Origin: an uncultured Clostridia bacterium | GTDB lineage: Bacteria; Bacillota; Clostridia; Oscillospirales; Oscillospiraceae | Assembly: GCA_945486035.1 (NCBI GenBank) | Contig: CALYTB010000003.1 | Location: 1 to 55,759 of the forward strand | Length of the DNA: 55,759 nt | Direction: 5' to 3' | Part shown: piece after piece, positions 16,308-42,750 of the stretch | Layout: the number at the start of each line of letters is the position of its first letter | Position numbering within the stretch: position 1 is the stretch's first letter | Translations under genes and position numbers: made by a program | The notes under the pieces: generated by a model | What the model saw: only the letters and a program-made list of their open reading frames with translations | Told to the model about the DNA's origin: nothing | Database searches by the model: none

Positions 16308-16542
16308 AATGTTCCTCCTTTTTCTATGAAAGGCCTTTCTACCCTATAAGACGCAAAAGAAACACAGACCGGACAATTCCTTGAAAAAACCTCCGGAAAA
16401 CCATCGGGCTGCCTGTTTCCGTCGAAGAAGAAGGGAAACATAGCAGCCGGAGGGTAACCCGGAGGATTCACAATAATTAGGGCATTTAACGGCAAGATCT
16501 CTGGCGCTTTATCTGTCAACTTTCGGTTGCTTTTTATATTTT

Positions 16543-16709
16543 TAGGGCAGCGCCGCATAATGAGGCAAGGAGATTCGGTGAGAGATTTTGACACAAGCGA
16601 AAGTATGAAAAATGCGGGAATACTGGATGTATTTCCCATTTTTTGTACTGCACGATTGGGGCAAAAGATCCACCGAAGCCCGCAGTCCCCATTGTGCGGT
16701 GTTGCCTTA
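16543..16709. repeat. Nested palindromic repeat element, copy 1 (MITE-like)
   Basis: Ends are inverted: TAGGGCAGCGCCGCATAATG at 16543 and, read backwards, TAAGGCAACACCGCACAATG from 16709. The core (AGTATGAAAAATG 16602-16614, GGGAATACTGGATGTATTTCCC, CATTTTTTGTACT 16637-16649) forms an inner hairpin. It resembles the copies at 27598 and 42583, most clearly at GGAATACTG-ATGTATTTCC and GCAAAAGAT. Its right end is 4 nt from the radA stop codon. The remaining upstream DNA (16308-16542) holds no visible gene. Confidence 0.75.
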
Positions 16710-16713
16710 GAAA

Positions 16714-22950: not shown

Positions 22951-22984
22951 AAAAAGAGGTACGCAGATACGTACCTCTTTTTTT
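22951..22984. terminator. Bidirectional terminator between GH29 gene and tRNA-Leu
   Basis: A perfect 12-bp stem (22951-22962 with 22971-22982) flanked by A-run and T-run, serving both the plus-strand GH29 gene and the minus-strand tRNA-Leu genes. Confidence 0.88.
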
Positions 22985-23071
22985 GGTGGGCGAGGCGGGA
23001 CTTGAACCCGCACGTCCGCAGTGAACACTAGAACCTGAATCTAGCGAGTCTACCAATTCCACCACTCGCCC
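22984..23071 (-). tRNA. tRNA-Leu (CAG), copy 1
   Basis: The minus strand folds as a type II tRNA: acceptor GGGCGAG/CTCGCCC with encoded CCA, a five-pair anticodon stem CTAGA/TCTAG around TTCAGGT (anticodon CAG), a long variable arm and T-arm with GTTCAAGTC. It is second in a tandem pair with the copy at 23094, differing by one base in the variable-arm loop. Confidence 0.96.
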
Positions 23072-23093
23072 ATATGATCTTGTGAGAAAAAGC

Positions 23094-23181
23094 TGGTGGG
23101 CGAGGCGGGACTTGAACCCGCACGTCCGCAATGAACACTAGAACCTGAATCTAGCGAGTCTACCAATTCCACCACTCGCCC
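23094..23181 (-). tRNA. tRNA-Leu (CAG), copy 2
   Basis: Same cloverleaf and anticodon as the downstream copy, CCA encoded at 23094-23096. It is transcribed first, from the promoter at 23223-23251. The single difference from copy 1 is in the variable-arm loop, which keeps the fold. Confidence 0.96.
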
Positions 23182-23222
23182 ATCTCTTGTCTCCCGCCGG
23201 GCATTCACCCGACCGCTTGAAT

Positions 23223-26829: not shown

Positions 26830-27600
26830 ATGAAACGGATGACAACGGTTTTGATACTCCTTCTTTTGCTGCTCTGCATTCCGATGCGTACAGATGCCAG
26901 TACCCCCTTGGTTGTGGATGAAGCGGGACTTCTCACAACTGCCCAGGTTCAACAGCTTGATGCGCTCGCGGAAAGCATTGCTTCTGATAACGGAATGGAC
27001 GTCGCCATTCTGACTGTGAATTCCCTGAACGGGTATTCCGCCCGGACATTTGCGGACGACTATTATGACAGCCATGGCTATCGGTATGACGGGCTTATCC
27101 TGCTGCTTGCGATTCAGGATCGGGAATGGTATATCAGTACCAGCGGAAAAGCAATCGATGCCTTTACAGACTACGGTCTGGAGCAGCTGGAGGAGAAGAT
27201 TGTTCCCTCCTTTTCTTCCGGGGACTTTTTCCGGGGCTTCCATACTTTTTTATCCGAAGCGCAAGAATACATGCAAGCCTATCATTGCGGAAACCCCATT
27301 GACGTTCCGGCAAGAAGCTTTGGCTCCATCCTCACAGTTTCGGTTGTAATCGGTCTTGCATTTGCCGGGATTTCCCTTCTGTGTATGCGCGGGGCAATGA
27401 ACACAAAGCGCAGCCAATACAGCGCCAATGAATATATGAAGGATGGTAGCTTTTCTATGCCTGTGCGTCAGGATATCTTCCTGTACAGCAATGTGAGCAA
27501 AATGAAACGTCCGGAAAACAATGGCTCCGGTAAGGGCGGAAGCAGCGTACACACCAGCTCCAGCGGCAGAAGCCATGGCGGCGGGGGCGGAAAATTCTAA
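26830..27600 (+). CDS. TPM-domain membrane protein
   Basis: The 256-residue protein has a signal peptide (about 1-23), a TPM domain (about 27-150: VVDEAGLLTTAQVQQLD, then YYDSHGYRYDGLILLLA and DREWYISTSG), a transmembrane helix (about 164-184), and a cytoplasmic tail ending in a Ser/Gly-rich HGGGGGKF. Proteins of this layout (YgcG-like) are common and mostly uncharacterised; some TPM domains act as phosphatases or in photosystem repair. It follows the zinc-ribbon gene by 15 nt. Its TAA stop is the first triplet of repeat element copy 2. Confidence 0.83.
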   Translation: MKRMTTVLILLLLLLCIPMRTDASTPLVVDEAGLLTTAQVQQLDALAESIASDNGMDVAILTVNSLNGYSARTFADDYYDSHGYRYDGLILLLAIQDREWYISTSGKAIDAFTDYGLEQLEEKIVPSFSSGDFFRGFHTFLSEAQEYMQAYHCGNPIDVPARSFGSILTVSVVIGLAFAGISLLCMRGAMNTKRSQYSANEYMKDGSFSMPVRQDIFLYSNVSKMKRPENNGSGKGGSSVHTSSSGRSHGGGGGKF

Positions 27601-27765
27601 GGAAGCTCTGATTAATCCGGCAAGAGCTGACAGCGAGAGATTTTGCTTCCTCAGAAAGTTTGGAAAATCGAGGAATACTGTATGTATTTCCGATTTTCCA
27701 AACTGCACTGAGGGAGCAAAAGATCCGCTGCTCAGCCGTAGACGATTTATTCAGAGGTTCCCTAA
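27598..27765. repeat. Nested palindromic repeat element, copy 2 (MITE-like)
   Basis: The left end TAAGGAAGCTCTGATTAAT (27598) is inverted at the right end ATTCAGAGGTTCCCTA (to 27765). The inner arms GTTTGGAAAATCG (27658-27670) and CGATTTTCCAAAC (27691-27703) are a perfect 13-bp pair. Both ends carry TA. The first three bases are also the stop codon of the TPM gene. It is about 168 bp, like copies at 16543 and 42583. Confidence 0.85.
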
Positions 27766-42547: not shown

Positions 42548-42582
42548 GGCCGTTTCACCGTGATCGTGAGACGGCCTCTTTT
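42548..42582 (+). terminator. Terminator of the ybaK unit
   Basis: GGCCGTTTCAC (42548-42558) pairs with GTGAGACGGCC (42566-42576), followed by TCTTTTC. Repeat element copy 3 starts immediately after. Confidence 0.82.
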
Positions 42583-42750
42583 CTAGGGAAGCTCTGATAA
42601 ATCGGCAAGAACTGACGGCAGAAGATTTAACTTCATTCGAAAGTTTGAAAAACGGAGGAATACTGTATGTATTTCCCACTTTTCAAACTGCAGGTCTGGA
42701 GCAAAAGATTCGCCGATCAGCCGCAGACGAATGAATCAGAGGTTCCCTAG
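42583..42750. repeat. Nested palindromic repeat element, copy 3 (MITE-like)
   Basis: The termini CTAGGGAAGCTCTGATAAAT and ATGAATCAGAGGTTCCCTAG are inverted. Inner arms GTTTGAAAA (42643-42651) and TTTTCAAAC (42680-42688) flank GGAATACTGTATGTATTTCC. Length is about 168 bp. It resembles copies at 16543 and 27598 over most of its length. The TA at each end would suit insertion of a TA-targeting transposon derivative. No transposase is encoded. Confidence 0.87.

Follow-up and report, generated by a model that had tools for sequence, protein, structure and literature searches.

Bacterial MITEs of long palindromic form, such as Correia, ERIC and RUP, are short, gene-less, multi-copy and foldable. 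To our knowledge, each of these families is confined to a genus or family and carries one type of end, and MITEs in general are commonly regarded as short-lived remnants of a single IS. Integron attC sites provide a second point of reference, given their variable arms, conserved unpaired bases and preference for one strand. The third is the IS5 family, for which PMC10359306 gives YTAR as the motif of the target duplication.

Here we describe a family of elements of ~160 bp, with terminal stems and no transposase gene, that is present in three copies on a stretch of 55,759 nucleotides (the window). This window corresponds to contig C3 of an assembly of 2.46 Mb in 273 contigs that is 78% complete (G000, the element's own genome). 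Its features are as follows, the coordinates of whole copies including the target duplications and the bit scores being those of a covariance model, R2.

16542..16710, plus strand: copy 1, TTAG/TTAG duplications, type-B ends (GGCAGCGCCGCATAAT); 149.7 bits
27597..27765, plus strand: copy 2, CTAA/CTAA duplications, type-A ends; 164.1 bits
42583..42750, plus strand: copy 3, CTAG/CTAG duplications, element of 160 bp, type-A ends (GGAAGCTCTGAT); 128.3 bits, E 5.5e-29
42548..42576, plus strand: intrinsic-terminator-like hairpin with a T-rich tail directly before copy 3, belonging to the target site and not to the element
42583..42586, no strand: left target duplication of copy 3, CTAG
42587..42606, plus strand: left terminal inverted repeat of copy 3, the 5' side of the terminal stem (inner limit approximate)
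42611..42721, plus strand: structured core of copy 3, about R2 positions 26-136 (boundaries approximate), recurring with other ends in other families
42727..42746, plus strand: right terminal inverted repeat of copy 3, the 3' side of the terminal stem (inner limit approximate)
42747..42750, no strand: right target duplication of copy 3, CTAG

The element proper, as matched by covariance model, lies 4 bp inside these limits, at 16546-16706, 27601-27761 and 42587-42746. These matches agree to within 1-2 bp with the copies, sizes and blocks described in an earlier, sequence-only reading of the window, and the GGAATACTG-ATGTATTTCC and GCAAAAGAT blocks that it named occur in all three copies. The terminal repeat that it took to be common to the three is shared by copies 2 and 3 (GGAAGCTCTGAT) but not by copy 1 (GGCAGCGCCGCATAAT), and the TA that it saw at both ends is present in every copy but forms just the central two bases of a direct repeat of 4 bp (TTAG, CTAA or CTAG). 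Over 152 nt, copies 1 and 3 are 63% and 80% identical, respectively, to copy 2; given these identities and the matches of all three to R2 at E <= 5.5e-29, their resemblance is not due to chance, with the provisos that R2 includes copy 3 and near relatives of copies 1 and 2 among its 44 sequences and that the E-values of R2, and of a second model, R1, are rough. The left duplication of copy 2 contains the TAA stop codon of the open reading frame at 26830-27600. A search of the window against Rfam 15 returned four tRNAs only; two tRNA stretches of 90 bp (22984-23183, minus strand) are 99% identical and lie 110 bp apart, start to start.

We think it likely that these elements are MITEs that are moved in trans by transposases of the IS5 family and that carry an old module selected to fold as a single strand. 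The fold and its spread had not been anticipated in the sequence-only reading. The interior of the element is one long imperfect hairpin with variable arms and conserved internal loops, and copy 3 folds as a single long hairpin at -66.8 kcal/mol (z -7.6; 0 of 200 shuffles as good). The main set, drawn from a single family, comprised 77 of 79 copies, reduced to 44 by dereplication at 88%. In it, 93.9% of cells are paired, compared with 75.1% for shuffled and at most 50.6% for slid partners; both sides have changed in 46 of 54 pairs, and covariation scores 0.506 versus 0.156, values inflated by relatedness within one family and by collection with a fold model. As a replicate, we took 45 of 55 cores of genomes sampled at the level of order and class (44 belonging to other families and one, L332, to the window's), which were found with the model and then realigned without it (MAFFT). 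The result was similar, with 88.5% of cells paired versus 63.1% when shuffled (no more than 65.0 in any of 200 shuffles) and changes on both sides in 32 of 35 pairs, although this set, too, was collected with a fold model and its related rows inflate covariation.

Which strand folds? Because G-U on one strand is A-C on the other, strand symmetry predicts a ratio of 1:1. The observed numbers are 97 G-U versus 31 A-C in the main set (77:40 for pairs derived from the minus strand) and 76:26 in the replicate (34:18 for minus-derived pairs), and, by RNA energies, the more stable fold is that of the plus strand in 44/44 and 42/45 sequences, respectively. The covariation, the wobble asymmetry and the folding energies are most simply explained by selection for a folded form of one strand. 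Conservation is highest in the apical stem, GGAATAC...GTATTTC, which holds a G-U pair conserved in 38 of 44 copies, the strings GGCAAG, GAGATTTTG and GCAAAAGAT, and, further out, AAGGC; the internal loops are rich in purines. Some copies depart from full length: four deletion derivatives in genome G018, of 37 and 65 bp (L261:5232, L262:6674, L263:7677 and L264:10311), keep the terminal stem, two of them with exact 4-bp duplications, and a 180-bp copy (L254:9137) has its apical part apparently duplicated.

The core is far more widespread than the three copies of the window. The counts that follow all include the element's own genome, genomes recur between surveys, and copy numbers and presence are lower bounds since 7-46 candidates were scored per genome. 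The R1 model matched 54 of 61 genomes of the genus and 45 of 120 of the family (44 of 106 genera). With R2, built from 44 dereplicated copies, matches were obtained in 83 of 295 genomes of the order (50 of 148 genera), in 63 of 391 of the class (44 of 223 genera) and, at 1e-5, in 5 of 348 of the phylum, two of which lie outside the class. These two phylum-level genomes, G1371 and G1379, are the only ones with outside-class matches at 1e-5, and one of them has seven. No match was found among the plasmids and phages searched with copy 3; the sole viral pattern match (L097) was rejected as an element after its sequence was read, and it has no R1 match at 1e-6. Many of the far matches span R2 positions 26-136 alone, which define a core of ~110 nt, and in G633, G417, G459 and other genomes this core lies within repeats of ~275 bp that have different ends (GGGCGTGC...). 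At 5 of 55 loci (L345, L347, L353, L356 and L372), a second core adjoins the first in inverted orientation, the paired cores being 57-68% identical in global alignment.

What might such a core do? In our reading, the interior is an ancient module: its imperfect hairpin, with the conserved loops and the apical stem GGAATAC/GTATTTC, is found with differing terminal repeats across the class and has been maintained by selection for the folding of one particular strand. A conserved factor would recognize the folded core, either in read-through RNA or in exposed single-stranded DNA, and would help a gene-less element to reach a transposase made elsewhere. That the core acts for the element itself in this manner, easing access to the transposase, is a proposal that we put forward tentatively.

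It is plausible, if far from assured, that the core would serve the element in trans as an RNA that might, for instance, recruit nascent transposase, in analogy to SINE RNAs, which recruit their partner's machinery. Covariation that includes wobble pairs, the conserved apical G-U and the purine-rich internal loops all speak for RNA. Against it, no promoter-like site was found around copy 3, such sites are not in excess inside the 78 copies scanned, and the terminator directly before copy 3 implies that read-through RNA of that strand would be scarce there. Could the core instead act as folded single-stranded DNA? By analogy with attC sites, one strand would fold when exposed, the terminal stem would present the transposon end as a duplex and the unpaired bases would set the strand. 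We hold this to be possible but somewhat doubtful. The variable arms, conserved unpaired bases and preferred strand fit it, as does the lack of a promoter excess, and in the five elements of the ~275-bp type with inverted cores, the plus strand of each core runs outward to an end. On the other hand, the apical stem is among the most conserved parts even though it is far from the ends, no IS with the core as a part of it was found among 58 transposase loci scanned, and the duplications described below fit ordinary DDE transposition of double-stranded DNA. We draw nothing from orientation, since the gene calls are crude: relative to the gene on the left, 39 of 78 copies are plus, 33 minus and 6 unknown, and a scan of 100 elements was mostly minus (47 versus 23). 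Taken one step further, the ~110-nt core would be an old, selfish, strand-specific folded module that spreads through the Clostridia by acquiring the ends of any transposon available, as the several types of terminal repeat, the single or inverted double cores and, in some families, the location inside terminator loops might suggest, and that captures, as RNA or single-stranded DNA, a transposase made elsewhere. We regard this extended version as unlikely; if it were true, the core would be a bacterial counterpart of SINEs, one that rides on DNA transposons.

Quasi-palindromes are known to be corrected by template switching. Is it possible that this is an ordinary MITE with an unselected fold, in which template switching during replication corrects one arm of the hairpin from its partner and thereby imitates covariation? 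That the hairpin is unstable is indeed suggested by deletion derivatives as short as 37 bp. Yet the internal loops remain mismatched and conserved instead of being corrected, a strand-neutral correction predicts neither the excess of G-U over A-C nor plus-strand folding in 44 of 44 copies, and the core and its length recur across the class. We therefore judge this account improbable and return to a fold that is selected on one strand.

Within its own genome, the element is abundant. BLAST gave 20 matches, 18 of which were used to build the R1 covariance model. R1 in turn gave 60 matches at E <= 0.001, which reduce to 33 distinct places, including 29 of full length, because the inverted form scores on both strands; with 150 of 753 candidates scored, 33 is a lower bound. 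Together with a half copy found by BLAST (L020), the genome thus holds at least 34 copies, and the expectation from the window that there would be many is confirmed. Exact 4-bp duplications flank 22 of the 28 full-length copies tested, and three pairs of copies are 100% identical at different loci, e.g., L042 (CTAG) versus L043 (CAAG).

Empty sites in relatives were found at both of the sites tested. The copy at G000:C7:29391-29559 (L035) interrupts a gene whose product, judged by eye from the sequence, resembles a MOSC-domain protein. When the flanks of this copy were joined into a 316-base query, matches came from 11 of 121 genus genomes, including the own genome, which matches in two pieces (1-162 and 157-316). 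Eight of the 10 relatives (G008, G052, G378, G414, G370, G058, G384 and G362) match across the junction, the 91 surrounding bases being gapless, and the matches of the other two are short and stop before it. The corresponding query for the site of copy 3 matched 85 of 136 genomes, mostly in the left gene only; contig C1 of G031 matches across the junction at 72% identity without the 160 bp, a weaker case because the spacer has diverged. Many copies, target duplications and empty sites support the non-autonomous, MITE-like nature first read from the window, and we conclude that this is a true MITE family. These data also bear on a host-domesticated regulatory element or noncoding RNA gene. Structure conservation this deep is typical of noncoding RNA, but presence varies among relatives at the two sites tested, one copy splits a gene, near-identical copies sit at unrelated sites, and neither the window nor six element loci matched an Rfam family at gathering score. 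We consider domestication very improbable. The six loci gave three matches to Rfam 15, all below the gathering score; the best, mir-992, an animal microRNA hairpin (38.4 bits against a gathering score of 79; E 6.8e-5), is taken as mere hairpin likeness.

The MITE nature of the family leads to the question of its transposase, to which the target duplications provide an entry. They were studied in 78 of 79 copies from the own genome, genus and family (one copy without ends was dropped, and that of L085 is only 86 bp). Immediately outside the ends, 44 of the 78 have an exact 4-bp direct repeat, whereas shuffled partners give a mean of 6.8 and a maximum of 16; the other 34 have none. The motif YTAR accounts for 35 of the 44 (TTAA in 14, TTAG in 12, CTAA in 6 and CTAG in 3), and the remaining nine are CAAG (three times), TGAG, CTTT, CTAT, TCAA, TTTA and TCTA, several of which lack TA. 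A scan of named genomes gave exact 4-bp repeats in 49 of 100 elements (34 of the 49 YTAR), some of which arise by chance since ends were sought within 5-6 bases and without a control. Across 48 far copies, almost none of which belong to the window's family, the terminal repeats differ, and only eight have an exact 4-bp repeat at the model ends (TTAA five times, TAAA, TCAA and TTTA); the true ends of the far copies may lie elsewhere.

As for the choice of target, a strong hairpin is present in 15.4% of the 78 left flanks versus 1.5% of random windows. A preference of the window-family copies for terminators was considered but dropped, as no excess is left in a comparison with windows downstream of stop codons (8 and 9 of 100 versus 27 of 389). 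Separately, the joined 28+28-base flanks of longer core-bearing elements, whose ends were set by hand, outfold every one of 50 controls in 6 of 11 examined, and these six sit in the loops of intrinsic-terminator-like hairpins (L338, L339, L345, L347, L349 and L353, in G633, G417, G459, G534 and G527).

Both end types of the element are also present on IS5-family elements of relatives that have an IS5_4 transposase and 4-bp duplications:

L098: type-B IS, 1133 bp, TTAG/TTAG, with a 325-aa transposase ORF
L099: type-B IS, 1150 bp, CTAA/CTAA
L100: type-B IS, 1132 bp, no exact duplication
L266 and L267: type-B ISs, no exact duplication
L269: type-A IS, 1217 bp, CTAT/CTAT
L271: type-A IS, 1217 bp, TTAG/TTAG
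L273: type-A IS, inexact duplication

The transposase domains of L098-L100 match NF033581 at 205-218 bits (cut-off of 140), and among 300 family genomes this profile matched 89, 15 of them above the cut-off. These ends were not detected when 29 PF01609 loci were scanned for inverted repeats in general; a scan by the element's own ends was positive at three of the 29 (L098-L100), and fitting ends were present at 5 of the 19 NF033581 loci scanned (L266-L284, out of 30). Genomes G001 and G051 carry many copies of the element alongside an IS of this type. Thus, a full IS with the same terminal repeat exists in relatives, and in the own assembly, 78% complete, no intact partner was found. The absence of a transposase from the window, as first read, holds for PF01609 and NF033581, the two profiles checked, which have 2 and 3 matches, respectively, in the own genome, all on other contigs; a truncated IS5_4-like ORF lies on G000:C237 (L284:1501-2118), with matching ends absent. 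The element shares with the type-B ISs the terminal 15-19 bp and nothing beyond; because the ends alone are in common, it is no simple internal deletion of the ISs compared. The two ends of Escherichia coli IS5A agree with type A at 11-13 of 18 positions, depending on the variant, and with type B at 9-10 of 18; the IS5A copy used in this comparison lacks matching 4-bp flanks (TTAT and GGAG).

We propose that DDE transposases of the IS5 family (IS5_4, NF033581) would recognize the ends of the ~160-bp MITE and that a transposase made by an IS would mobilize it in trans, duplicating a 4-bp, mostly YTAR, target. The TA-targeting, IS630/Tc1-like enzyme suggested by the sequence-only reading is not supported by the length of the duplications: TA is found at both ends of every window copy, and a 2-bp match at that offset occurs in 54 of 78, but the 2-bp match sits inside longer matches of 4 bp (44 of 78, nine not YTAR) and the same ends sit on IS5-family elements, so that a MITE of the IS630/Tc1 type with a TA duplication is extremely unlikely.

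Several further searches addressed how the element and transposase genes are arranged. The core matched at 2 of the 58 transposase loci scanned (L115 and L280), and no IS with an internal core was found among the 58; L115 holds a copy beside a transposase fragment, at L115:1885-2045 (G052:C192), where it abuts the PF01609 fragment as though inserted there. Across 360 kb searched in G001 and G018, a mate is missing for five left ends that have no more than one mismatch, L245:18292 among them, and four mateless left ends that were read (L246/L247, L254, L255 and L258) are truncated copies. A search for composite transposons covered six of seven stretches with paired copies a few kb apart and nine proteins between the copies, none of which is a transposase; three have a Pfam match (a rhamnosidase and two MatE). 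On contigs C95, C11, C12, C32 and C41 of G031, neighboring copies run minus then plus, with no plus-then-minus pair among the matches listed, and the genes between the copy pairs examined look ordinary wherever Pfam gives them a name.

This family makes it possible to test how an element without genes gains access to a transposase, given that such an enzyme tends to act on its own copy. There is also a practical warning: searches for structured RNAs will pick up mobile elements, and the R2 model finds these. We found no description of the family in the open-access literature searched; publication elsewhere is possible.

Compared with the systems outlined at the start, the element is like the IS5 subgroup of the IS5 family (E. 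coli IS5A; NF033581) in its 4-bp YTAR motif (PMC10359306), in its type-A ends (11-13 of 18 versus IS5A) and in that IS5_4 elements of relatives bear its ends. It differs in being a MITE without a transposase gene, with the ends alone in common and unrelated interiors. It shares strong covariation and strand preference with the structured RNAs of Rfam but, in contrast to them, is mobile and generates target duplications. Like attC sites, it has variable arms, conserved unpaired bases and a preferred strand; in contrast to them, it has direct duplications of the DDE type. In contrast to Correia, ERIC and RUP, the present family has a single core that spans a class and carries several types of end. 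Because compensating changes keep the fold class-wide while the ends differ, the interior matters to the element. As a MITE, the family adds a new member to a familiar kind, from which it is set apart by a structured, strand-specific core that spans the class and occurs with differing ends.
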